A stretch of DNA of 20,899 nt, from the IMG/VR virus record IMGVR_UViG_3300025276_000260, positions 1 through 20,899 of that record, one strand, 5' to 3'. Within the stretch, counting starts at the first letter, position 1, and each line of letters begins with the position of its first letter. Below the pieces are notes generated by a model. It was given only the letters and a program-made list of their open reading frames with translations. It was not told where the DNA came from and searched no databases. A program made the translations under genes and the position numbers. The DNA comes from a virus. This document shows, piece by piece, positions 1,409 through 17,603 of the stretch.

Positions 1409-1759
1409 ATGAGCAATCACGTGCAAAAAATCCTCCCCGACCAGAACCACAAGCCGTTGCTGTCAAAAGCGGACCTTGCTGCTATCGAGGCCGATCCCGC
1501 CCTGATGGAAACCTTCTCTCGGCTCTTGGGAGCGGTTAACCTGGATAATTTGTTTCGCACCATGCAAGAGCCAGACATCAACCCCGCGACACGCATAGAA
1601 TTTCAGAAGATGCTGAACAAAATGGGCAAGCTGGAGCCTGATTTAAAGGCTGCAAACAGCGGAGCCGGTCCTCAGGTCGTCATCAACATCACCCGGGCCA
1701 AGGATAACGAAGAACTTGTGATCGACGCGGCTATGGACACGGTAGAACATGCTCCATGA
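1409..1759 (+). CDS. Putative terminase small subunit
   Basis: This is a 116-aa protein ending 11 bases inside the large terminase gene. The order (small ORF, then terL, then portal) is the classic packaging order, and the length suits a small terminase, which binds the packaging-initiation DNA and hands it to TerL. Sequence support is weak: it is a mainly helical, charged protein with a C-terminal QVVINITRAKD strand-like stretch, and I see no unmistakable helix-turn-helix. The ATG is preceded by dyad copy A and has no good Shine-Dalgarno sequence. The overlap implies translational coupling to terL. The call rests mostly on context. Confidence 0.65.
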   Translation: MSNHVQKILPDQNHKPLLSKADLAAIEADPALMETFSRLLGAVNLDNLFRTMQEPDINPATRIEFQKMLNKMGKLEPDLKAANSGAGPQVVINITRAKDNEELVIDAAMDTVEHAP

Positions 1760-3164
1760 AATCAATTTTGAGGTAATTAAGAGCCTTGATGACTTTTTCT
1801 ACTCTGAAAAGTTCATTTCGTTAGCTGTAGGACCGGTCGGATCAACCAAAACCACCGCTGGAATCATGAAAATACTGCACCACGCTGCGTTAATGGCCCC
1901 GTGCAAGGACGGAGTACGCCGGTCTAGGGCCATTTGGGTGCGAAATACCCGCGAACAGCTGCGAGACACGTCAATTCCTGACTTTTTGAAGTGGATTCCC
2001 GACGGAGTTATGGGGTCTTTCCTCAAAACAGAGTACAAATTCATCATAAAAGTAGGCGATATTGAGTGCGAAGTGCTGTTTAGGGGGCTAGATGACGCCA
2101 ACGACGTGCGCAGATTGCTCTCATTACAGGCCAGTTTCTTCGTTTTCGACGAATTTAGGGAGATTCACCCCGATATTTACAACACTGCTCAAGGTCGTGT
2201 TGGTCGTTATCCCGACAAGATGATGAACGGTGTGGGGTGTAAAACCGACGATGGGGACATGAATATGCACGTTTGGGGCATGACAAACCCCCCTGACATG
2301 GACACTTTTTGGGAAACGCTGCTCACAGAGCCGCCAGATAACGTGCATGTTACGATCCAGCCCAGTGGTCTGGCCCCCGAGGCGGATTGGACGAAATTCC
2401 TGCCCGATGACTACTACGACAACCTAGCACACGGCAAAACCGAAGACTGGATAGACGTCTACATCCACGCTGAGTTTGGCAAGTCCCTAAGCGGCCAGCC
2501 TGTGTTCCGTTCGTTCGACAGGTCCGTGCACGCGTCTAGTGAAGAGCTAACGCCGATGTACTCCGATGATCCTCTTCTGATCGGTGTGGACGCAGGGCTG
2601 ACGCCAGCTGCTGTGATTGGCCAAGTTGCCTACGATGGACGGCTGGTCGTGTACGATTCACTGATCTCGGACGGTATGGGTGCCTTACGCTTCGTGAGAG
2701 AGCGCCTAAAACCCCTGCTTGCGAACAAATTTCCCGGTCGTAGTACCCTCGTAATCATTGACCCAGCGGCGTTTCAGCGTGCGCAGACGGACGAGCGCAC
2801 CGTGGCTGACATTTACAAAGCTGAAGGCTTTTTGGTCAAACCCGCAAAGACGAACTCGGTTGCTGCACGCATAGCCGCGGTAGAAAAATACCTGACACGC
2901 GTTGTCGACGGTAAATATTCCTGCGTGGTAGACTCGACCAGTGCGAACTCGCTCGTCCAAGCGTTGTCGGGGAAATATCGTTACAAAATAAACACCAAAG
3001 GCGCACGTGATGAAAAACCCGAAAAATCCCACCCTTGGTCAGATGTAGCCGATGCGTTCCAGTATATGTGCCTGCACGCTGACGGCGGCGAGACATTTGG
3101 TTCCGCGGCTTGGGGTGCGCAGCGTAAAGAAGTGACTAAAGTCTCAGCTGGTGGATGGACCTGA
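1749..3164 (+). CDS. terL: Terminase large subunit (ATPase and nuclease)
   Basis: This 471-aa protein is the motor that pumps DNA into the prohead and cuts it. The ATPase half has a variant Walker A, GPVGSTKTT, at residues 28-36, and a hydrophobic Walker B, FFVFDE, with D134 and E135. The nuclease half has an RNase-H-like fold with candidate metal-binding acids D281 (IGVDAG), D338 (VIIDP) and D432/D435 (WSDVADAF). The full length is normal for the family and all key motifs are present. It overlaps the small subunit gene upstream and the 54-aa gene downstream. No strong ribosome site precedes the ATG, so coupling to the upstream gene is likely. Confidence 0.95.
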   Translation: MLHEINFEVIKSLDDFFYSEKFISLAVGPVGSTKTTAGIMKILHHAALMAPCKDGVRRSRAIWVRNTREQLRDTSIPDFLKWIPDGVMGSFLKTEYKFIIKVGDIECEVLFRGLDDANDVRRLLSLQASFFVFDEFREIHPDIYNTAQGRVGRYPDKMMNGVGCKTDDGDMNMHVWGMTNPPDMDTFWETLLTEPPDNVHVTIQPSGLAPEADWTKFLPDDYYDNLAHGKTEDWIDVYIHAEFGKSLSGQPVFRSFDRSVHASSEELTPMYSDDPLLIGVDAGLTPAAVIGQVAYDGRLVVYDSLISDGMGALRFVRERLKPLLANKFPGRSTLVIIDPAAFQRAQTDERTVADIYKAEGFLVKPAKTNSVAARIAAVEKYLTRVVDGKYSCVVDSTSANSLVQALSGKYRYKINTKGARDEKPEKSHPWSDVADAFQYMCLHADGGETFGSAAWGAQRKEVTKVSAGGWT

Positions 3165-3319
3165 GTAGAGAAAAACGAAAAGAAGCCGACCGTATGATGC
3201 GGTTGGTAAAAGGCCGTGGCATACCCGAAGGTTGGAGTGACGCTGACATCGAAGCCATGTACGACGAATACTTCAAGAGGTTGTGGTACAACCAAGAGCG
3301 TACATATGTTGACATGTAA
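3155..3319 (+). CDS. 54-aa hypothetical protein between terL and portal
   Basis: A short frame starts at an ATG 10 bases inside the terL end and stops at 3319. It encodes a highly charged, probably helical protein beginning MDLSREKRKEADRMMRL, with WSDADIEAMYDEYF in the middle. No family is recognised. The terL overlap fits translational coupling, and its last codons contain dyad copy B. Position suggests a head-assembly or packaging accessory, but that is only an inference. It is short enough that a chance frame cannot be excluded, though the composition looks protein-like. Confidence 0.7.
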   Translation: MDLSREKRKEADRMMRLVKGRGIPEGWSDADIEAMYDEYFKRLWYNQERTYVDM

Positions 3320-3322
3320 GCA
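3307..3322. promoter_or_regulatory. Dyad motif, copy B (before portal gene)
   Basis: TGTTGACATGTAAGCA matches copy D at 15 of 16 positions. It overlaps the stop codon of the 54-aa gene and lies 45 bases before the portal ATG. It contains TTGACA, a consensus -35 box, but no convincing -10 follows at normal spacing. A 6-bp inverted repeat (CACATA at 3321-3326, TATGTG at 3351-3356) follows. It is a candidate promoter or operator for the portal gene. Confidence 0.55.
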
Positions 3323-3366
3323 CATAAGTGGTAGTGCACGCACGACGTTATATGTGAGAAAATAAT

Positions 3367-5403
3367 ATGGCGCTTGGCCCAGCATTAGTTCCCGTTGCAC
3401 GCGCCTCTGACCTTGAGGCAGAAGCTAACCGTGCTGCTACGGAGAAGCAGAACTCCCCGATGATGGAAGGACTTGCGTCCCACACCCGTCGTCGCTGGGA
3501 AACTATGCGCGATCACTACCGAGAAAATACAGAACTTCGCCTGTCGAAATGCGTTCGCGCCCGTAACATGGAGTACGAACCCTCCAAGATGGCTGAGATA
3601 CGCGAGCAGGGCGGCTCTGAAATCTTTATGGGCATTGTCAGCACGAAGTGCCGTACGGCCACTGCTTGGCTACGTGACACGCTCCTAGGCGTTGGTGCGG
3701 ACAAACCATGGGGCATATCCGCTACGCCGCTCCCTGAGGTACCCCCAGACGTCGAGACTGCGATGCAGGGCATCATGCAGCAGAATCTTATGCAGCACTA
3801 CGCAGCAGGCGGGGAACAGCCCGCAGAGGCCGATCTGAAGCAGCTGGCGTCGGGCATGAAAGACACAGCCATGCGTGCGATGAAGTTCGAGGCTGACAAA
3901 CGTGTCGAGCGCATGGAAACTAAAATGGAGGATCAGTTCGTAGAGGGCGGGTTCACCAAGGCTATGTTTGAGTTTACCAACGACATTGCGACGTTCCCCT
4001 ACGCGATCCTTAAAGGCCCGATCCCGCGCAAGCGCAAAACCATGAAGTACATGGATGGCGGTCTGGGTATAGTTGAGGTTGTACGCGACGAGTGGGAGCG
4101 CGTAGACCCGTTTAAGTTCTACTGGATGCCTTGGGGCGATGATGTCCAGAACATGCCTGTCATAGAGGTTCATCATCTGACCCGCTCAGACGTAGAAGAT
4201 ATGTTGGGCATGGAGGGCTACGACGAAGATTCTGTCCGCTCTATTCTGTCAGATTTTGGTGTTGGCGGCTTCGACTGGTTGGACCACGACACCAGTATTA
4301 TGGAAGACGTTACAGGCGTAGATTTCGATGACGTAAGCGGTGATCTTGTAGCTGCAATACAGCTGTGGGACACGATCCCGGGTGATATTCTGCTTGAGTG
4401 GGGCTTAGGCGAAGAAGAAATTCCAGATCCCCAAAAATCCTACCCCTGTGAAGTTTGGATGGTTAACAACACGGTCATTCGTGCTGTGCTGAACTACGAT
4501 CCGCTGGGTCGTAAACCGTATTACATCACTAGCTTTGAAAAAGTACCTGGGCGGATCGACGGCAACGGTGTTGCTGATCTCTGCATGGATGCGCAAAACA
4601 TGTGTAATGCGGCTGCGCGTAGCCTTGCCAACAACATGGGTATCTCCAGCGGACCTCAAGTCGGCGTAAATATCAGCAGACTTCCTGCTGGCGAAGACAT
4701 CACGCAGATGTACCCGTGGAAAATCTGGCAGTTCAAGCAGTCAGAATACGGCGATGCTAGCCCACCCATGACCTTTTTTCAGCCAAACTCTAACGCTGCG
4801 GAGCTTATGGGGGTGTTTGATAAGTTTATGGCTTTGGCCGACGAAGTTTCAGGTATCCCTCGTTATATGACAGGCCAGCATGTTCCCGGTGCGGGACGTA
4901 CTTCCTCGGGGCTGTCTATGCTGATGTCTAACGCTGGCAAAAGCATAAAACAGGTAATCAGTAACGTTGACCATGATGTGATCTCACCGATGGTGCAGCG
5001 TCAGTATCAAAGGAATCTAAGGTATTCAGAAGACCCCGATCTTATTGGCGATGTCCAAATTGTGGCACGCGGTGCGATGTCGCTTGTGGTTAAAGAAGCT
5101 GAAAGTGTCCGTAAGACTGAGTTCCTCCGTCTTGTTCTGGAAAGCCCTGTTGCACAGCAAATTGTTGGCTTGCCGGGTACGGCTGAATTACTCCGCGACT
5201 TGGCGGGTAATCTCAACACCAATGTCGATCGTCTTGTCCCTAGCCGAGAAGATGTTCAGAAGCAGCAAGCCATGGCCCAGCAGCAGCAGCAAGAGATGAT
5301 GCAGATGCAGCAGATGCAGGAAGCAGCACAGTTGCAAGAAGACGGCACGCAAATGGGCGGTCGGCAGGACAACACGATGAGTCCGCGGCCAAACGGTCGA
5401 TAG
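3367..5403 (+). CDS. Portal (head-tail connector) protein
   Basis: This 678-aa protein would form the dodecameric ring at the capsid vertex through which DNA passes. Support comes from its place after terL and before scaffold and capsid genes, and from a portal-like region near residues 495-560 (VSGIPRYMTGQ, then GAGRTSSGLSMLM and a helical stretch). The extreme C-terminus is Gln/Met rich (about residues 636-660), as in several podovirus portals, where it may form part of the barrel or be flexible. Length is in the large podoviral class. The ATG lacks an obvious Shine-Dalgarno sequence (only GAGAAAATAAT precedes it), which is odd for a highly expressed gene, and dyad copy B lies just upstream. 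Confidence 0.9.
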   Translation: MALGPALVPVARASDLEAEANRAATEKQNSPMMEGLASHTRRRWETMRDHYRENTELRLSKCVRARNMEYEPSKMAEIREQGGSEIFMGIVSTKCRTATAWLRDTLLGVGADKPWGISATPLPEVPPDVETAMQGIMQQNLMQHYAAGGEQPAEADLKQLASGMKDTAMRAMKFEADKRVERMETKMEDQFVEGGFTKAMFEFTNDIATFPYAILKGPIPRKRKTMKYMDGGLGIVEVVRDEWERVDPFKFYWMPWGDDVQNMPVIEVHHLTRSDVEDMLGMEGYDEDSVRSILSDFGVGGFDWLDHDTSIMEDVTGVDFDDVSGDLVAAIQLWDTIPGDILLEWGLGEEEIPDPQKSYPCEVWMVNNTVIRAVLNYDPLGRKPYYITSFEKVPGRIDGNGVADLCMDAQNMCNAAARSLANNMGISSGPQVGVNISRLPAGEDITQMYPWKIWQFKQSEYGDASPPMTFFQPNSNAAELMGVFDKFMALADEVSGIPRYMTGQHVPGAGRTSSGLSMLMSNAGKSIKQVISNVDHDVISPMVQRQYQRNLRYSEDPDLIGDVQIVARGAMSLVVKEAESVRKTEFLRLVLESPVAQQIVGLPGTAELLRDLAGNLNTNVDRLVPSREDVQKQQAMAQQQQQEMMQMQQMQEAAQLQEDGTQMGGRQDNTMSPRPNGR

Positions 5404-5411
5404 CTCACATG

Positions 5412-5427
5412 TGTTGACACGTTAACA
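5412..5427. promoter_or_regulatory. Dyad motif, copy C (before 77-aa gene)
   Basis: TGTTGACACGTTAACA has 6 of 8 palindromic pairs and is followed by GATATAAAGTATCTA. TTGACA (5414-5419) with TATCTA 17 bases later gives a plausible sigma70-type promoter, the best of the five copies. The next ATG (5449) has no Shine-Dalgarno sequence, as with copy A. Confidence 0.6.
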
Positions 5428-5448
5428 GATATAAAGTATCTAAACCGC

Positions 5449-5682
5449 ATGATAGACCTGAATCTTTGTGACCCGCAGCAAGCACAAGCGCTGCTTCAGA
5501 TTAAGGAAACAGGGAATGACCAACTGCCCAGCCTGCTTAGGGCTGAAGCGGAAACCGCCAAGACAATGCTTGTAGTAGCGACCGACACGGTAAGAATCCA
5601 CCGGTTGCAGGGCAGAGTAGAGGCATTTGAAGATTTACTGAGGGCGCTTGAAAACGCGCACAAAGTAGTGAAACGCCTCTAG
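5449..5682 (+). CDS. 77-aa hypothetical protein between portal and scaffold
   Basis: This is a small, Leu/Ala-rich, almost entirely helical protein (MIDLNLCDPQQAQALLQIKE). Its C-terminal half has a coiled-coil look (RIHRLQGRVEAFEDLLRAL). Similar small helical ORFs are often found between portal and scaffold genes in marine podoviruses, but no function is established to my knowledge. It follows dyad copy C with no ribosome site, so it may be made from a nearly leaderless transcript. A role in head assembly is inferred from position only. Confidence 0.75.
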   Translation: MIDLNLCDPQQAQALLQIKETGNDQLPSLLRAEAETAKTMLVVATDTVRIHRLQGRVEAFEDLLRALENAHKVVKRL

Positions 5683-5762
5683 GGGCATACGAAGCATACC
5701 AAGTACGGGATCAGCATACCCAAGGGCGCTGTGATACGGAGTTGACGCTTTAAGGAGACAAT

Positions 5763-6722
5763 ATGGCACTACCGAAGCAGGTGCAGGCACAGCTTGCAGA
5801 AGTCGAAGAGTACGAAAAAGCGCTAGAAGCCCAGCAAAACCCACAAGCGGTGGAGATGGATACGGAAGCGAAAGTAGGCACTGAGGCAGAAGCAGCACCC
5901 CCACCTGACAAAGTAGAGCCAGCTGACACGTCACCGACGGACGTAGAGGAAGAGACTTTTAAGCAGAAGTACGCAACCCTGTTGGGTAAGTACGACGCTG
6001 AAGTTCCCCGATTGCACCAGCAGGTGCGAGAACTAAACGGAGAACTTGGGCAAATCCGCAAGGATATAGCTGCTAAACCGGTCGAACCGACAAAGTCGAA
6101 GGAGAAAGTCAGTTTTGTAACCGATGAAGATCGAGCTGAGTATGGCGAAGAACTTCTGGACGTTCAGCGACGAGTTGCGCAAGAGGTCTCGCAAGATTAC
6201 GAAGACCGGCTTGAGCGACAAGACGCGGTTATTGCGAAGTTGCAGGAAAAACTTGCAACAACGGGTAGCCAAGTTGGCGAAATGGACTTTTCTCAGAGGT
6301 TGCAACAAGCAGTCCCTGACTGGTCGCAAATCGACAATGATGAACGCTGGGTAGCGTGGCTAAACGAGCATGATCCCATGCTTAGAGGCCAACGCCGGGT
6401 TCTAGCGCAGGCAGCATTTGACAACGGTGATGTAGAAGCAGTTTCGGACTACGTGAAACTTTGGAAAGCATCACTCGGTGAACCAGATGTAGCTAAGCAA
6501 AATCGCAAGACCGAGCTTGAGAAACAGGTTGCGCCAAATCGTTCTGCTAATTCTACCCGTACGCAGAGTGCCGCGCAAAACTCCAAGATTTACTCTACCC
6601 GTGAGGTAGACAACGCTTGGACTAAAGTTCGCACCTTGAATACCAGAGGGCAGTACGCAGAGGCGGAAAAACTTGAAGCAGAGTTAACCGTTGCGTATAT
6701 GGAAGGCCGCGTTAGACAGTGA
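5763..6722 (+). CDS. Scaffolding protein
   Basis: This 319-aa protein sits directly before the major capsid gene. It is highly charged and predicted to be helical. The acidic N-terminal part (to about residue 70) is rich in Glu, Ala and Pro; central coiled-coil segments run from about 80 to 150; the C-terminal end is basic and mixed-charge (TKVRTLNTRGQYAEAEKLEA). This is the usual make-up of phage scaffolds, which fill the prohead, template coat assembly and leave before or during packaging. A strong AAGGAG ribosome site lies 6 bases before the ATG. The family is called from composition and position, since scaffolds diverge quickly. Confidence 0.85.
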   Translation: MALPKQVQAQLAEVEEYEKALEAQQNPQAVEMDTEAKVGTEAEAAPPPDKVEPADTSPTDVEEETFKQKYATLLGKYDAEVPRLHQQVRELNGELGQIRKDIAAKPVEPTKSKEKVSFVTDEDRAEYGEELLDVQRRVAQEVSQDYEDRLERQDAVIAKLQEKLATTGSQVGEMDFSQRLQQAVPDWSQIDNDERWVAWLNEHDPMLRGQRRVLAQAAFDNGDVEAVSDYVKLWKASLGEPDVAKQNRKTELEKQVAPNRSANSTRTQSAAQNSKIYSTREVDNAWTKVRTLNTRGQYAEAEKLEAELTVAYMEGRVRQ

Positions 6723-6729
6723 TCTAATG

Positions 6730-6745
6730 TGTTAACATGTAAGCA
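6730..6745. promoter_or_regulatory. Dyad motif, copy D (before capsid gene)
   Basis: TGTTAACATGTAAGCA lies 37 bases before the major capsid ATG. It shares a 12-base core (GTGTTAACATGT) with copy E and differs from copy B at one base. The capsid gene, unlike those after copies A, B and C, also has a strong TAGGAGG ribosome site. The motif would suit a separate promoter boosting capsid expression. Confidence 0.6.
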
Positions 6746-6782
6746 GCTGTTAAGTCTTAAAACAACTTAGTAGGAGGCCAAA

Positions 6783-7790
6783 ATGGCTGCTGTATTCCCC
6801 GTCGTCGGTTCAGGCGCATTCGACACCGACCCATCATACTCCGGTGCGTTTATTCCACAGTTGTGGTCAAACAAGCTGAACGCAAAGTTCTATGCTAACA
6901 CCATGATGACTGAAATTTCCAACACCAGTTGGGAAGGCGAGATTAAAAACCAAGGCGATACCATTCGTATTCGCCAAGCACCGTCGATCACCATCAACGA
7001 CTACGCAGGCGCAGGTACTACCCTGACATCTGAAGTACCCGTACCGATCTTCCAAGACATGCAGATCGACCAGGGTAAATATTTCAGCGTACAGGTCAAC
7101 GACGTACTCGCGCACCAAGCGGACATGGATTTGATGAACATGTTCACTGACGACGCTGCCAAACAGCTGAAGATCACTATCGAAAACGAGACGTTCTTCA
7201 ACTGGTACGTCACAAACGGTGCCCACGCGTCCAACAAAGGCGCTACAGCCGGTGCGATCTCTGCCGCGTACAACCTTGGTACAGACGTAGCTCCCATCAA
7301 CCAAGCAACACCCGCAAATGTGCTTAACTGCATCCTGCAAATGTCGTCTGCGCTTGATGAGCAAAACGTACCTGAAGATAATCGTTGGTTGGTTATCTCC
7401 CCACGTGACCGTCAGCTGCTGATGCAAACCGACATCGCCCAAGCGTACTTCACTGGCGACCAGTCCAGCGTTATCCGCACAGGTAAAATTGGTATGCTGG
7501 ATCGCTTCACCGTTTATGTGAGCAACCTGTTGCCCAAAGGCGCAGCGGCTAAAGCTCTCGTTCCCGGTCTGTCTGCGACTGCTACTGGTGCAACAGTGTC
7601 TAACGCCAAAGCCCGTCGCATGATGGTTGCTGGCACAAACACTGCTTGCTCGTTTGCTTCGCAGATCAACAAAACTGAGCCTCTGCGTAACCAGACTGAC
7701 TTTGGCGACATCGTTCGCGGCCTAGCCGTATATGGACGCAAGGTCGTTAAGCCAGAAGCGCTGGTAACAGCTCTGGTCGGCACAGCTTAA
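6783..7790 (+). CDS. Major capsid protein
   Basis: This 335-aa protein is the expected shell protein with an HK97-type fold. It follows the scaffold and starts MAAVFPVVGSGAFDTD; a conserved-looking early segment (AFIPQLWSNKL, then FYANTMM) is typical of coat proteins related to the P22/N4-like podovirus groups. Length is right for a major capsid protein without a delta domain. Translation should be strong: TAGGAGG is followed 6 bases later by ATG. Dyad copy D precedes it and a stable hairpin follows, so the gene is bracketed by its own control signals. Exact family assignment is uncertain, the role much less so. Confidence 0.92.
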   Translation: MAAVFPVVGSGAFDTDPSYSGAFIPQLWSNKLNAKFYANTMMTEISNTSWEGEIKNQGDTIRIRQAPSITINDYAGAGTTLTSEVPVPIFQDMQIDQGKYFSVQVNDVLAHQADMDLMNMFTDDAAKQLKITIENETFFNWYVTNGAHASNKGATAGAISAAYNLGTDVAPINQATPANVLNCILQMSSALDEQNVPEDNRWLVISPRDRQLLMQTDIAQAYFTGDQSSVIRTGKIGMLDRFTVYVSNLLPKGAAAKALVPGLSATATGATVSNAKARRMMVAGTNTACSFASQINKTEPLRNQTDFGDIVRGLAVYGRKVVKPEALVTALVGTA

Positions 7791-7801
7791 ACTTAACAGC
7801 G

Positions 7802-7825
7802 TAGGGGGAGGTCCGCTTCCCCCTA
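7802..7825 (+). terminator. Hairpin after the capsid gene (terminator or mRNA stabiliser)
   Basis: TAGGGGGA (7802-7809) and TCCCCCTA (7818-7825) form a perfect 8-bp stem with an 8-base loop, 12 bases after the capsid stop. No run of T follows (TTCCCC instead), so it is not a textbook intrinsic terminator. It could be a leaky terminator, or a 3' structure that protects the capsid message and lowers expression of the tail genes. Confidence 0.65.
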
Positions 7826-7847
7826 TTCCCCGGCAGAGGAGCTTACC

Positions 7848-8555
7848 GTGGCTACTGTTAAAGTAATCGACATTATTGAGCGTGTAGAACACGTCTTGCA
7901 AGACACAAGCATTCGCTGGCCTCGCACTGAACTTCAAAGCTGGATCAACGAAAGCTATCTGGCCATTACGTTGTTGCGCCCTGACGCTAATGCCAAAGCA
8001 GATACGTTTACATGTGCGGCGGGTTCGCGGCAAGTCTTGACAAAAACTGGAGGCGGCGGGTTTCCTTCGGCTTTGCAGCTGTTAGACGTTACGCGAAACA
8101 TGAAATCCGGGTCTACGCTGAAAGCAGTACGTTTAGTATCTCGCGCAGTGTTAGACGACCAACGACCCACATGGCACGCTGAAACCCAAAGCGATAACAT
8201 ACAGCATTACATGCATGATCCGCGTCAACCCAAAGAGTTTTTTGTTTACCCCCCCGCAACTGCAACGGCGCAGGTCGAAGTCATTTATGCTGATGCGCCA
8301 GCCGCGCACGCTTTAACTGAAAGCCAACTTGACCCTGCTGCCAGCTCGCCCGACACTACCGTAATAAATCTCGACGACATCTACATGTCTCCGATGATCG
8401 ACTGGGTACTGTATCGTGCGTACAGCAAAGACGCGGAGTACGGAGCAAACGAGCAACGCGCCCAAGCGGCTTACGGGGCGTTTAATGCCGCTATAGGGGC
8501 AAAATCGCAAACTGACTCGGCTGTATCGCCGAAGATAGCTACGTCGGTGACATAA
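7848..8555 (+). CDS. Head-tail adaptor protein (DUF6682-like)
   Basis: This 235-aa protein uses a GTG start with GAGGAG 8 bases upstream. The N-terminus (VIDIIERVEHVLQDTSIRWP, then ELQSWINESYLAITLLRPDA) matches my recollection of the DUF6682 family, small helical adaptors that bind below the portal in short-tailed phages. The C-terminal half (YMSPMIDWVLYRAYSKDAEYG and AYGAFNAAIG) also fits that family. As the first gene after the capsid it is positioned to encode the adaptor that extends the portal channel. I am fairly sure of the family and less sure of the exact structural position. Confidence 0.75.
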   Translation: MATVKVIDIIERVEHVLQDTSIRWPRTELQSWINESYLAITLLRPDANAKADTFTCAAGSRQVLTKTGGGGFPSALQLLDVTRNMKSGSTLKAVRLVSRAVLDDQRPTWHAETQSDNIQHYMHDPRQPKEFFVYPPATATAQVEVIYADAPAAHALTESQLDPAASSPDTTVINLDDIYMSPMIDWVLYRAYSKDAEYGANEQRAQAAYGAFNAAIGAKSQTDSAVSPKIATSVT

Positions 8556-8556
8556 A

Positions 8557-9186
8557 ATGGCTGTTGTATGGGATAAATTCTACCCCTACATACAGCCCTA
8601 TTTGCCGGGTTGTCCTGAGGTTGTGATCGAGGCGCACCTGAAAGAAGCCGCCGCAGACTTCTTTGCGCGTAGCGAAATCTGGCGTTTTGACATCGACCCA
8701 GACTTTACCAGTGCGTCGACCAAAGATTATGAGCTAGACACCCCAACAAACGCGGTCTTGGAAAACATCTATGAGTTGCTACTAGGCGATCAGTGTCTCA
8801 CTCGTATCAGCGACAGGCACGTAAACATTTCGCGTTTTACTACAAACGGCAAGCCAGTTTACTACGCAGTTTATCAAGATACTTCGGTGCGATTTTACCC
8901 AACACCAGATAAAAAATACACGTTTCGCGGCGTAGGGGTTTTAAAACCAAGCCTGTCGGCCACGGGCGTAGAAGACTGGATTTACGAAACGAACGGACGC
9001 TGTATTTCGTATGGCGCAATTTCTCGTCTCGCAGAAGTACCCGGCAAAGAGTGGTCTAACCCAGAGCTTGCTAGCTACTACCGCAGCAAATTTGACATGG
9101 ACGCCGACATGGCGAAGTCCCGCGACTATAGGCGGGTAAACCTGCGGGTCGGCAGTCGCAGTTTTGACGGTTCTCGGAGGTACTAA
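8557..9186 (+). CDS. Putative second connector or tail-tubular protein
   Basis: This 209-aa protein starts one base after the adaptor's stop. It opens with a helical adaptor-like segment (residues 1-45; VVIEAHLKEAAADFFARSEIWR). Next come a beta-rich middle (YELDTPTNAV...YYAVYQDTSVRFYP) and a C-terminal helical part ending in GSRSFDGSRRY. The layout recalls connector proteins of the T7 gp11 type, but I do not recognise a named family. Tight spacing to both neighbours implies co-translation. The role as head-tail joining or tail-tubular protein is inferred. Confidence 0.6.
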   Translation: MAVVWDKFYPYIQPYLPGCPEVVIEAHLKEAAADFFARSEIWRFDIDPDFTSASTKDYELDTPTNAVLENIYELLLGDQCLTRISDRHVNISRFTTNGKPVYYAVYQDTSVRFYPTPDKKYTFRGVGVLKPSLSATGVEDWIYETNGRCISYGAISRLAEVPGKEWSNPELASYYRSKFDMDADMAKSRDYRRVNLRVGSRSFDGSRRY

Positions 9187-14291: not shown

Positions 14292-14777
14292 GTGATTGAT
14301 CCCGTCACGGCATATACTGGCGCAGTGTTGGCCTATAAAACCGTGACCAAATTGGTTCAGGCTGGCCGCGAACTCAGCGAGGTTACAGGTCAATTATCAG
14401 AGTGGTACGGCTGCGTAGCTGACCTCCAGAAAGCGGGTGAACTTAAAAAGTCGCCGTCGTTGTTTGAGAAGGCTAGTCAGGGCGCGGATACGATAGAAAA
14501 AGAAGCTCTGGACATCGTCATTCGACAGAAAGAAATGTTCCAAAAGGAAAAAGAGCTTAAATTCCTACTTGATTACAGATTTGGTCCTGGTACGCACCAA
14601 CAGGTGCTTGATCTTAGACGCAAGATTAAAAAAGAGCGCGAAGAAACGGTGTATAGGCAGATGGAAGCTAAGCGAGCCATCATAAACAACATAGCAATCA
14701 CTGGGCTGTCGACGGGTATTATTGGAGTTGTAGGAGCGGGTTCTTATTTTGTTGGCGTAGGAGCAGGAGCGTGGTAA
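14292..14777 (+). CDS. 161-aa hypothetical protein with hydrophobic C-terminus
   Basis: It uses a GTG start with AAGGAG 7 bases upstream. The N-terminus (MIDPVTAYTGAVLAYKTVTK) is a recurrent opening for a marine phage protein family of unknown function. The middle is strongly helical and charged (about 85-130: KEMFQKEKELKFLLDY ... LRRKIKKEREE). The last 30 residues are Gly/Val/Ile rich, suggesting a membrane-inserting or glycine-zipper segment (IGVVGAGSYFVGVGAGAW). This layout could suit a lysis or internal virion protein. The end overlaps the next gene by 7 bases. Confidence 0.75.
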   Translation: MIDPVTAYTGAVLAYKTVTKLVQAGRELSEVTGQLSEWYGCVADLQKAGELKKSPSLFEKASQGADTIEKEALDIVIRQKEMFQKEKELKFLLDYRFGPGTHQQVLDLRRKIKKEREETVYRQMEAKRAIINNIAITGLSTGIIGVVGAGSYFVGVGAGAW

Positions 14778-15052
14778 ACGTGTTAACATGTGCACACATA
14801 TTACTGGCGGGGTCTCTGCTTAACCCTGACTACATAGACTGCCACCTATGGAAGAGGATCACGGATGTCACAGGCCAAAAGATATGTGTCTACCGGGGGA
14901 AGAACAGCGTGATGGCGTACCACTATGTAACCGACAACGGCAGCTTAAATCAGTGGTCGCAGTGCCCCAAGACCATACGCTGTGTCTACGACCCGAAGAA
15001 CAAACGTCCGACGCTCTCTGAGATCATGGACTCGATCAAAGGAAATTTCTGA
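14771..15052 (+). CDS. 93-aa hypothetical protein opening the small-gene cassette
   Basis: It starts at GTG (14771) with GGAG upstream and overlaps the previous stop. The product begins MVNVLTCAHILLAGSLLNPD, a short hydrophobic stretch that could be a weak signal or a buried strand, and has four further Cys and several aromatic residues (YIDCHLWKRITDV, QWSQCPKTIRCVYDP). No family is recognised. It is less basic than the genes that follow. It joins the next gene through TGATG, and dyad copy E overlaps its first codons. A GTG at 14780 is an alternative start. Confidence 0.65.
   Translation: MVNVLTCAHILLAGSLLNPDYIDCHLWKRITDVTGQKICVYRGKNSVMAYHYVTDNGSLNQWSQCPKTIRCVYDPKNKRPTLSEIMDSIKGNF
14781..14796. 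promoter_or_regulatory. Dyad motif, copy E (at start of the small-gene cassette)
   Basis: TGTTAACATGTGCACA lies within the first codons of the 93-aa gene and shares 12 contiguous bases with copy D. As part of a coding frame it could be chance, but it lies exactly where the basic-protein and lysis genes begin. A promoter here would allow separate control of those genes. Confidence 0.45.
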
Positions 15053-15336
15053 TGGGCGACAAACCAATCCGCAAAACCACCGGCAAGGGCGGCAACTACC
15101 GCAAGACCAAGTCAGGTGCAGGCATGACCGCTAAAGGTGTCGCCGCGCACAGAAGAGCTAACCCCGGGTCAAAGTTAAAAACTGCGGTGACGGGCAAGGT
15201 CAAGCCGGGAAGCAAAGACGCCAAGCGGCGCAAGTCGTTCTGCGCACGTTCAGCCGGTCAGATGAAGCAGTTTCCGAAAGCAGCGAAAGACCCGAACAGT
15301 CGTCTGCGACAAGCTAGAAAACGGTGGAAGTGCTGA
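15052..15336 (+). CDS. 94-aa extremely basic small protein
   Basis: 29 of 94 residues are Lys or Arg and only 3 are acidic. The sequence is glycine/lysine rich (KTTGKGGNYRKTKSGAGMT, GSKLKTAVTGKVKPGSK, RRKSFCARSAG). The same GKGGNYR...SGAGMT...GVAAHRRANPGSKLKTAVTGKVKPGSK...RRKSFCARS pattern is common in marine phage genomes as a protein of unknown function. The composition suggests nucleic-acid or membrane binding. It overlaps the previous stop (TGATG) and its end overlaps the next start. No membrane segment is seen. Confidence 0.75.
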   Translation: MGDKPIRKTTGKGGNYRKTKSGAGMTAKGVAAHRRANPGSKLKTAVTGKVKPGSKDAKRRKSFCARSAGQMKQFPKAAKDPNSRLRQARKRWKC

Positions 15337-15524
15337 TGTCGAAAGCCAAGCCAACAAACGCAGCCCTGTGGTCAAAAGCTAAGTCTGCGGCCAAAGCGAA
15401 GTTCAAGGTCTACCCATCCGCATATGCCAACGCTTGGGCGTCCAAATGGTACAAATCCAAAGGCGGTGGCTGGTCGGGCGGCAACAATAAGGTGGCGAAA
15501 CGTGGCAGTAGCAAAAAAGGGTAA
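15336..15524 (+). CDS. 62-aa extremely basic small protein
   Basis: The product (MSKAKPTNAALWSKAKSAAK) has about 15 basic residues and no acidic ones. It has an aromatic core, VYPSAYANAWASKWYKSKGGGW, that recurs in small proteins of marine phages and bacteria. The start is set by TGATG overlap with the previous gene and by GTGGAAG upstream. A GTG at 15324 would add 4 residues. A short compact fold around the Trp/Tyr pairs with basic tails is plausible. Function is unknown. Confidence 0.7.
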   Translation: MSKAKPTNAALWSKAKSAAKAKFKVYPSAYANAWASKWYKSKGGGWSGGNNKVAKRGSSKKG

Positions 15525-15756
15525 GGGCGGTCTTGGCAAGTGGTTTGGCGAAGAATGGACCGACGTTAAGACAGGCAAGGCTTGTGGCCGAAAGTCGGCT
15601 AAAGGCAAATCTAAAAGGCCGTATCCTGCCTGCCGTCCAAAGAAAGTTGCGTCGAAGATTACGAAGTCGGAAGCGAAGAAAAAGACCGGACCGAAACGAG
15701 TGAAGTGGTCCACAACAGCAAGCGGAAGGAACCGCCGTGAAAAAGCCAAAACCTAG
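15502..15756 (+). CDS. 84-aa basic small protein (GLGKWF...YPACRP family)
   Basis: It starts at GTG (15502) with AAGGTGG upstream and overlaps the previous gene by 23 bases. It reads VAVAKKGKGGLGKWFGEEW, then DVKTGKACGRKSAKGKSKRP and YPACRPKKVA. The order GGLGKWFxExWxDxKTGKxCGR...YPxCRP defines a small protein family of unknown function (DUF5872-like, from memory) widely found in viruses and bacteria, with two Cys that could bind metal or form a disulfide. Net charge is about +23. Overlap implies coupled translation. Confidence 0.7.
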   Translation: MAVAKKGKGGLGKWFGEEWTDVKTGKACGRKSAKGKSKRPYPACRPKKVASKITKSEAKKKTGPKRVKWSTTASGRNRREKAKT

Positions 15757-15907
15757 CACAAAATTAACTCCCAGACAGGAGACCATATTGAAGAAACACT
15801 CGGTTCACCACACGACTAAACACATGACCATGATGCGACGGCTGATGAAAAACGGCACCACTTTTAGCGCCGCCCACAAGAAAGCTCAAAAGAAAGAGAG
15901 TAAGTAA
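15737..15907 (+). CDS. 56-aa basic small protein (LTPRQ...LKKHS family)
   Basis: It starts at GTG (15737), 20 bases inside the previous gene. It reads MKKPKPSTKLTPRQETILKK, then HSVHHTTKHMTMMRRLMKNG and TTFSAAHKKAQKKESK. This LTPRQ..LKKHSxHH..KHM..M...M..G.TF..AHK.A pattern is a small marine phage family of unknown function. Five His, many Met and about +14 charge suggest nucleic-acid, metal or membrane interaction. It ends in TAATG with the next start. Confidence 0.7.
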   Translation: MKKPKPSTKLTPRQETILKKHSVHHTTKHMTMMRRLMKNGTTFSAAHKKAQKKESK

Positions 15908-16056
15908 TGCCCAACGTAGGAAAGAAAACTTTTGGTTACAACGCGGCAGGTAAAAAAGCAGCGAAATCATATGCGGCTAAAACCGGCAAGCCCATGGCTG
16001 TAAAAAAAGCTATGCCTAAGAAGGCTAAGGCTAAGTCTAAGGGTATGTATAAGTGA
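15907..16056 (+). CDS. 49-aa Lys/Ala-rich mini-protein
   Basis: MPNVGKKTFGYNAAGKKAAK is followed by Lys/Ala-rich repeats (KTGKPMAVKKAMPKKAKAKSK). It has 15 Lys, no Arg and no acidic residue, and resembles the tail of histone H1 or a protamine-like peptide. It shares its ATG with the previous stop (TAATG), and its stop overlaps the next GTG. Function is unknown; DNA condensation or membrane activity are possibilities inferred from composition. Confidence 0.7.
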   Translation: MPNVGKKTFGYNAAGKKAAKSYAAKTGKPMAVKKAMPKKAKAKSKGMYK

Positions 16057-16271
16057 CAATCGAGGAGCGCCAACACCTTGATATGAAAACCTACCAAGAA
16101 AACAGGCGTAGGATGTGCTGGTGTGCTCTTGGCATGATGGTCGCGGCTACCGTGGCTGTCATTGTCGACCCTGCGCGAATGGCGCTGGCTTCTGCACAAA
16201 TGATGATGATGTACGGCTCACTCAGTGCCTTGGTGGGCGCTTATTTTGCCGTGGGCCAAAAGGAGGGTTAA
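16053..16271 (+). CDS. Putative holin, two membrane segments
   Basis: The 72-aa product starts at GTG (16053), overlapping the previous stop by 4 bases. Two hydrophobic segments lie at about 21-38 (CWCALGMMVAATVAVIV) and 50-67 (MMMMYGSLSALVGAYFAV). The N-terminus is charged and the C-terminus short and polar. Size and topology fit a class II holin, which opens holes in the inner membrane and lets the endolysin out. The next genes are a second holin-like protein and the endolysin, strongly supporting a lysis role. Confidence 0.75.
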   Translation: MTIEERQHLDMKTYQENRRRMCWCALGMMVAATVAVIVDPARMALASAQMMMMYGSLSALVGAYFAVGQKEG

Positions 16272-16272
16272 G

Positions 16273-16662
16273 ATGCTGCAAGCTCTAATCGGACCTATAA
16301 CTCAACTGGCGGGGTCTTGGCTCAACGGCAAGGTCGAAACCAAAGCTGCTGAAACGCGGATGAAAGTGTCCGAGGCGGACGCACGGGCGAAGATCATGGT
16401 CTCGGCTGCAAACTCGGAAGCGGACTGGGAAAAGATCATGGCCCAAGGTTCGCAGAACAGCCTCAAGGACGAGTATCTGGTTTTACTTTTCAGTATTCCC
16501 CTTGTGCTTTCGTTCTGCGGAGAAAAAGGCCGCAAGATCGTCGAAGACGGGTTCGCCGCGCTTTCCACTATGCCCGACTGGTACAGCTACACCTTGGGCA
16601 TAATCGTGGCGAGTAGCTTCGCGGTTAGGTCAGCCACCAAGTTCTTTGGGGCAAGAAAATGA
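16273..16662 (+). CDS. GTA-type holin (GTA_holin_3TM-like)
   Basis: This 129-aa protein begins MLQALIGPITQLAGSWLNGK. Its central amphipathic charged helix is followed by KDEYLVLLFSIPLVLSFCG (about 65-83) and a C-terminal hydrophobic stretch (about 103-118). The 'DEy...fSiP' segment is the signature of the holin of gene-transfer-agent and alphaproteobacterial phage lysis systems (PF11351-like). A perfect AGGAGG ribosome site lies 6 bases before the ATG. A longer in-frame start at 16225 is unlikely, as it would overlap the previous gene. Two different holin-like genes in a row could be a holin and its regulator. Confidence 0.8.
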   Translation: MLQALIGPITQLAGSWLNGKVETKAAETRMKVSEADARAKIMVSAANSEADWEKIMAQGSQNSLKDEYLVLLFSIPLVLSFCGEKGRKIVEDGFAALSTMPDWYSYTLGIIVASSFAVRSATKFFGARK

Positions 16663-17603
16663 CTGTAGTCGCCTTTCCAGTCTTGTCTGATACCGACGTG
16701 CAGTTCGTCGCTTTGGAGAAGCAGCGAGAGGCGATTTCCGCGCAAAGGCGCATGATAGAGGAACGACGTACTATGATTTTATCTAGCTCACAGGTCGAGC
16801 AGCTGCTGCATGGCAACAAAGACTGGGAAGCGTGGGTCAAGCCCCTTCAGGAGTTGCTGCCTCGGTACCAGATTAACACGCCCCAGCGCGTGGCTATGTT
16901 TACTGCGCAGTGTGGGCATGAAAGCCTTAACTTTCGCGTACTAGAAGAAAACCTGAACTACTCTGCCGATGGGCTGAACTCAGTCTTTTCAAAGTATTTT
17001 AAACGCGCAGGGCGAGATGCAAAGGCGTTTCACCGCCAGCCAGAACGTATAGCTAACGTGGTGTATGCGGACCGCATGGGCAACAGCAATGCAGCGTCAG
17101 GCGATGGATGGAAGTACCGTGGTCGCGGAGTCATACAGTTAACTGGAGCGCATAACTATGTGATGTTTGCGGAGGCGGTTGAAAAGACAATATCTGCTAC
17201 GATTAAGTATCTCGGCACCAAAGAAGGTGCGCTGGAGTCGGCTTGCTGGTTCTGGACTAAAAATCAAATTAACACCGAGGCCGACAGCGGAGACGTACGT
17301 TCGGCGACCAAGCGCATCAACGGTGGGTACAACGGCCTGTCTGACCGAGAGCATCACTACAAAGAGGCCATGAAGATACTGGGCGGGGACTACACACCGA
17401 TGAGTCGTCCAGTAATGCTTAGGCTAGGCTCGACCGGCGACGAAGTTAAGACAGTCCAAGAAGCACTAGGTTTAGACGCGGACGGTCATTTCGGCAAAGT
17501 AACACAATCTGCTGTCGTCGTATGGCAGACAAACAACGACCTTCACCCCGATGGAATTGTAGGCCCGAAAACTTACCGCGCCATTGCAGAGCTATCTGCT
17601 TAG
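16659..17603 (+). CDS. Endolysin: GH19-type muramidase with peptidoglycan-binding domain
   Basis: This 314-aa protein overlaps the holin by 4 bases (ATGA). Residues 45-230 match the phage GH19 (chitinase-like) lysozyme domain, with catalytic Glu88 in CGHES and Glu97 in ENLNYSA, 9 residues apart as in the known phage GH19 endolysin SPN1S. A GRGVIQLTG motif follows. Residues about 250-312 are a PG_binding_1 domain (LRLGSTGDEVKTVQEALG ... DGIVGPKTYRAI). It cuts the cell wall at the end of infection. Odd: about 44 charged, helical N-terminal residues precede the usual domain start, and no strong Shine-Dalgarno sequence is present. A start at Met32 or Met39 is possible. Confidence 0.92.
   Translation: MTVVAFPVLSDTDVQFVALEKQREAISAQRRMIEERRTMILSSSQVEQLLHGNKDWEAWVKPLQELLPRYQINTPQRVAMFTAQCGHESLNFRVLEENLNYSADGLNSVFSKYFKRAGRDAKAFHRQPERIANVVYADRMGNSNAASGDGWKYRGRGVIQLTGAHNYVMFAEAVEKTISATIKYLGTKEGALESACWFWTKNQINTEADSGDVRSATKRINGGYNGLSDREHHYKEAMKILGGDYTPMSRPVMLRLGSTGDEVKTVQEALGLDADGHFGKVTQSAVVVWQTNNDLHPDGIVGPKTYRAIAELSA

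Follow-up and report, generated by a model that had tools for sequence, protein, structure and literature searches.

Overlapping, strongly basic mini-genes in a T7-like phage probably encode cationic proteins of the virion interior

Why would a phage carry five very small, strongly basic genes in a row, each overlapping its neighbor? The question arises from a 20.9 kb virus record (IMGVR_UViG_3300025276_000260, 20,899 nucleotides, hereafter the window), a fragment of a T7-like podovirus, in which five overlapping plus-strand open reading frames (ORFs), here genes B to F, form a cassette at 15052-16056 (Table 1). The positions, lengths and net charges (K+R-D-E) are exactly those counted in a first-pass annotation of this DNA. 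The pI of the five proteins lies between 10.5 and 11.8, and by charge density they are the top five of the 30-gene window list (0.24-0.31 per residue; the next gene has 0.135); by chance, the top five of 30 genes would lie side by side with a probability of ~2e-4. Neighbors overlap by 1 (B/C), 23 (C/D), 20 (D/E) and 1 (E/F) bases, which suggests that the five genes are plausibly made together.

Table 1 The basic mini-gene cassette and its surroundings in the window
Feature	Position	Strand	Description
Head module of the same phage	1749..9186	+	terminase large subunit, portal/head-tail adaptor, phrog_13678 gene in scaffold position, major head protein, tail tubular-type proteins
Upstream gene, outside the basic set	14771..15052	+	93 aa, +4; recurs with ORF 14292 in relatives
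Gene B	15052..15336	+	94 aa, net +26; DUF6321; C-terminus ...RKRWKC
Gene C	15336..15524	+	62 aa, net +15; N-terminal half of DUF5872
Gene D	15502..15756	+	84 aa from GTG 15502, net +23; C-terminal half of DUF5872
Gene E	15737..15907	+	56 aa, net +14; phrog_31838; optional member
Gene F	15907..16056	+	49 aa, net +15, no Asp/Glu; phrog_33179; optional member
Small membrane-type (holin-like) gene, downstream context	16053-16271	+	outside the cassette
Small membrane-type (holin-like) gene, downstream context	16273-16662	+	outside the cassette; phrog_2524
Endolysin-like gene, context	16659..17603	+	weak Glyco_hydro_19 match, PG_binding_1

Comparison with relatives of >60% identity gave a low median pN/pS for B (0.11, n = 128), C (0.21, n = 136), D (0.11, n = 133) and E (0.19, n = 63), and a value of 0.32 for F on n = 4 only; each set includes one row that is the window's own copy. 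Because synonymous changes far outnumber non-synonymous ones against many relatives, we take the frames of B to E to be real genes. The concern raised in the first pass, that the frames might not be translated, is thereby eased: the cassette genes look translated and under purifying selection, with four rows for F. The longest ORF containing D opens at 15424; since relatives of D begin near the equivalent of 15502, the GTG at this position was taken as its start.

Two of the cassette's proteins turn out to be halves of one family. B is a member of DUF6321 (PF19846; 46.3 bits against a cut-off of 28.5, E 7e-12). C and D both match DUF5872 (PF19197, curated cut-off 27.5), C at positions 1-39 of 116 (22.4 bits, E 2e-4) and D at positions 50-106 (25.1 bits, E 3e-5), i.e., in complementary, non-overlapping halves. 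Natural single-ORF fusions of C and D cover both halves (contigs L196, L197, L220 and L221), and the two that were scanned exceed the cut-off (45.6 bits for L196 and 43.7 for L220). Because C and D match separate halves and single-ORF fusions exist, the five-gene set includes one split family: judged by these profile matches, C and D together are DUF5872, divided over two overlapping genes in different frames, and other stand-alone phage genes divide it likewise. A combined C+D alignment was dropped, as D was misaligned in it. The PHROG families of E and F have no assigned function. AlphaFold2 models of B (pLDDT 87.7, four helices) and C (pLDDT 77.7) had no significant match among PDB folds and tied neither protein to any established DNA-binding fold; searching PDB sequences with a profile of B found nothing. 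Relatives of DUF6321 occur in 391 of 50,697 phage records; among the open-access papers searched we found none on this family, and DUF5872 appears there only as a table row for a haptophyte (algal giant) virus.

The first-pass annotation had considered the clustering itself to be the notable point and had asked whether homologues stay together in order. Scans of viral contigs recovered at least 600 relatives each of B and D, hundreds of C and 311 of E. Among 317 sequences, C was present in 205, D in 204, both in 201, and B with C in 122; the commonest arrangement was B-C-D in order (77), followed by C-D (69) and C-D-B (10). C and D were separate ORFs in 185 of 190 pairs, nearly always in different frames. 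E lies near B, C or D in part of its loci, and 10 of the 15 loci with F also have B, C and D. The exact order B-C-D-E-F was found only in the window and in its own copy (L001), and no further basic mini-gene was chained after B/C/D in 150 of 192 loci; 37 loci had a single one and 5 had a pair. The linkage thus held for B-C-D, across hundreds of marine phage contigs, and failed for the full set: we rejected all five genes as a conserved unit, with E and F as optional members. By this comparison, the window's cassette is an extreme case of a common B-C-D core.

Because the genes directly downstream are holin-like and endolysin-like, the proteins had also been proposed to permeabilize membranes or neutralize lipopolysaccharide (LPS) during lysis, jointly with the holins and endolysin and much like phage cationic outer-membrane disruptors. 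"Holin-like" is here a reading of the sequence that no family match states. In line with lysis helpers, no spanin was recognized in general family scans of the window, which is a fragment. Homologous cassettes, however, sit in other surroundings. In a descriptive tally, most neighbors of separate cassettes are members of unknown families. Where a family was recognized, it was mainly that of a major head, head maturation protease, portal, head-tail adaptor, terminase or tail gene, and endolysin/amidase matches were rare. One contig that shares the window's head genes has the order terL-portal-C-D-scaffold-MCP-TTA-TTB (L159); in the T7-like Prochlorococcus phage P-SCSP2 the modules lie between scaffold and capsid, with a relative of E adjoining D, and in the T7-like cyanophage P-SCSP1o they lie between MCP and a tail tubular gene. 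Among the relatives mapped, holin/endolysin neighbors are kept only in L119. Cassettes elsewhere thus lack the conserved holin/endolysin linkage expected of disruptin-type proteins, adjacency having been seen only in the window and its nearest relative, and we rejected proximity to lysis genes as meaningful. Fusion of the modules into proteins detected in virions (see below) and the listing of DUF5872 for an algal giant virus also speak against a lysis role, which we regard as highly improbable. Since relatives of B, C and D are joined within larger proteins from purified particles of other ocean viruses, packing of DNA in the head, rather than bursting of the host cell, is the most likely role.

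Other genes around these cassettes recur as well. The phrog_2524 family adjoins cassettes in other contigs, upstream in 2 and downstream in 4. ORFs 14292-14777 and 14771-15052 have 48 and 15 loci in relatives, and in L090 and L113 they lie away from the cassette. The Prochlorococcus phage P-SCSP1o encodes a further polycationic mini-protein (MAKKKGLYANIHAKRKRIKAGSGEKMRKPGAKG...; L007:6201-6377) after its DUF6321 gene, between capsid and tail genes.

The same modules also occur as beads of single long proteins. ORFs of up to 1077 aa join D, C and B; annotated examples are the T4-GC 119 proteins of T4-like cyanophages and their relatives, several of them encoded near the terminase small subunit gene. 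The order is mostly D-C-B (38 of 57 proteins before redundancy removal, which left 54). The T4 prohead protease gp21 cleaves after L/I-x-E (PMC9026906), a rule that we widened to V and M. In the 54 bead proteins, the resulting motif [LIVM]xE occurs 0.51 times per 100 aa inside modules, 4.79 times in the 22 aa that lead up to a module, and 1.94 times elsewhere. A site precedes 33 of 47 B, 41 of 44 C and 35 of 37 D modules, against 14.2, 12.7 and 10.5 expected from linker shuffles, and 0 of 1000 shuffles reached the observed number for any module type. In a Glu-independent check using the W[TQ] anchor of the B module, a Glu lay 2-6 residues before the anchor in 44 of 44 cases. Stand-alone proteins start about where beads would after a cut: gene C of the window begins M-SKAKPTNAALW, and beads read ...LISE/ANKPTNSKLW and ...LEE/KNKPTNPELW (slashes mark the predicted cut). 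The S-CREM2 major capsid protein carries LLTE/AP at the place where its N-terminal cut would be expected.

The T4-type protease family PF03420 was found in 10 of 16 bead-format contigs versus 0 of 24 separate-gene contigs (Fisher p 9e-6), a correlation that is confounded with phylogeny or phage type and includes some contigs that are fragments. No prohead protease was seen in the window's head module (1749..9186) or among the window proteins scanned against families, and the cassette proteins carry no N-terminal propeptide of the kind cut by a gp21-type protease. Our search of open-access papers, with many subscription journals outside its scope, found none that links these modules to prohead processing.

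Similar features appear in other proteins of these cyanophages. A DUF3008 module is a separate gene, labeled virion protein, in S-SCSM1 (S-SCSM1_93, L325:31627-31836), and the N-terminal bead of the S-SSM7 precursor (L317:3688-6672) resembles DUF3008, giving a second gene/bead switch. In addition, S-CREM2 ORF160 (L411:3943-4836) and S-SCSM1_97 (L325:33122-33307), which are reported or labeled virion proteins, contain the peptides GFTGAAAPEGPVAGYDPLM and GFTGSSAAEGPTAGYDPLM; these closely resemble GFTGAAAPGGPNAGFDPVM, which lies in the S-CREM2 capsid protein (L410:3982-5352) just after the predicted cleavage site. Given this resemblance, the peptide is possibly a mimic for capsid docking.

We infer the virion location of the window's proteins from homologues in other phages. 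Mass spectrometry of CsCl-purified S-CREM2 virions detected ORF137 (4 unique peptides, 4.1% coverage) and ORF160 (7 peptides, 13.1% coverage; PMC10665884 Table 3). ORF137 has a DUF6321 module at its end, and ORF160 contains D and C modules (HMM E 6e-18 and 2e-21). S-SCSM1_29, with D, C and B modules, bears the annotation "virion protein" in its record, and the S-SCSM1 paper reports 45 virion proteins detected by mass spectrometry. The S-SM1 homologue SSM1_115 (T4-GC 119) has no structural label, in a phage with 41 detected virion proteins. The detected peptides span a small part of the bead proteins, too little to tell which segments survive, and both the S-CREM2 and S-SCSM1 papers allow that some proteins may be co-purifying contaminants. 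E and F have no link to beads or mass spectrometry. A check of the P-SCSP1u cryo-EM paper for internal proteins yielded nothing.

Low coverage of the homologues would also suit late nucleic-acid binders that act inside the cell, nucleoid-like or RNA-binding, and are left unpackaged or packaged by accident; any nucleic-acid binder could be this small and this highly charged. Module-bearing proteins are nevertheless present in two independent virion proteomes, and processing inside the prohead is the best account of the protease-type sites that mark the bead borders; purely intracellular binders are thus quite unlikely. Another reading places the proteins in the procapsid core as partners of an acidic scaffold, acting in head assembly, mostly lost later and with no role on DNA. 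The window's scaffold-position gene is indeed acidic (-18), and relatives of the cassette lie between portal, scaffold and capsid genes. Homologues are detected in mature virions, however, and phages without a prohead protease have no known route for removing such partners; we consider this reading very unlikely.

Taken together, the cassette probably encodes late virion proteins that reside inside the head in association with DNA, as cationic analogues of the internal and core proteins of T4. The virion-internal location is likely on this comparative evidence, and direct association with DNA, argued by analogy, is somewhat less so. The first-pass suggestion that the proteins bind phage DNA or pack inside the capsid is supported to this extent by homologous modules on virion-detected proteins, by head-morphogenesis neighborhoods and by the prohead-protease-type sites of T4-like phages. 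We propose that small cationic proteins would enter the procapsid or travel with the genome, partly neutralize and condense the packaged DNA, and possibly leave with it at ejection. In T4-like cyanophages, D, C and B would be made as beads on a single precursor and cut apart by the prohead protease at [LIVM]xE; in the window's T7-like phage, where no such protease was seen, the already "mature" pieces would be made from separate overlapping genes. Three parts of this model we infer: that the beads are cleaved, that the window's five proteins lie inside the head, and that they bind DNA. The five charges sum to +93, and by simple arithmetic 100 copies of each would balance ~1/10 of the phosphate groups in a 40 kb genome, taking a hypothetical copy number and a genome length assumed from T7-like phages; T4 packages ~360 copies of each internal protein (IP) per head (PMC9026906).

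Proteins in the same place could have a different function. T4 IPI sets the precedent for effectors that are packaged, ejected with the DNA and then active in the newly infected cell, e.g., by countering restriction, instead of packing DNA (PMC9026906), and the gain and loss of cassette members between genomes recalls accessory internal proteins. A defence-system library, which covers defence and not counter-defence, gave no match to the cassette. Host-specific effectors would not be expected to show the strong conservation that B, C and D have among phages with widely differing hosts, and we judge an effector role unlikely.

Several known systems resemble the proposed capsid-core role. T4 IPI-III and core peptides are likewise small head-packaged proteins, and the gp21 rule matches sites in the T4-like relatives of the window's modules; the likeness is one of features, since the window's Pfam and PHROG matches are to other families, and the window's genes differ in having neither a propeptide nor a visible protease, just as the cyanophage form differs in being a multi-bead precursor. 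The cyanophage T4-GC 119 proteins (e.g., S-SSM7_236, P-SSM4_160 and S-SM1 SSM1_115) and relatives such as Syn30 CPRG_00197 share DUF6321 with B, and most have D and/or C, but they are several hundred to about 1000 aa long, carry [LIVM]xE sites between beads and come from phages with a T4-type prohead protease. Head-internal proteins of phiKZ and SPN3US are processed by a prohead protease that cuts after Glu, and those of phiKZ are DNA-associated (PMC9026906); compared by description, they share the internal location and the cut after Glu, but belong to giant phages and, in phiKZ, use an S/A-x-E motif. Polyvalent proteins (PMC5512222) also place many domains on one phage-delivered polypeptide, but the domains are of other kinds, and the words cyanophage and marine are absent from that paper. 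Internal head proteins are therefore a known kind; what is new is the identity of the modules, the division of DUF5872 over two genes, and a switch of format, with mini-genes in some phages and a precursor bearing prohead-protease-type sites in others. We found no open-access paper that states these points.

More broadly, and with slightly less than even confidence, we suggest that marine viruses may draw on a common set of interchangeable cationic modules for the capsid core (DUF6321, the DUF5872 halves and others), deployed according to lineage as separate overlapping mini-genes or as a protease-cut precursor, so that podoviruses, T4-like phages and, via DUF5872, algal giant viruses would arrive at the same particle chemistry by two routes. 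Judged by the scans for B and D and by the DUF6321 count, these proteins are among the more frequent small proteins of ocean phages that lack an explanation. If true, the capsid-core assignment would be the first function for two function-less Pfam families, and would provide a clean case of modules that one phage type encodes as separate genes and another strings into a precursor with protease sites; the cationic head contents of marine phages would then be testable with existing cyanophage isolates.
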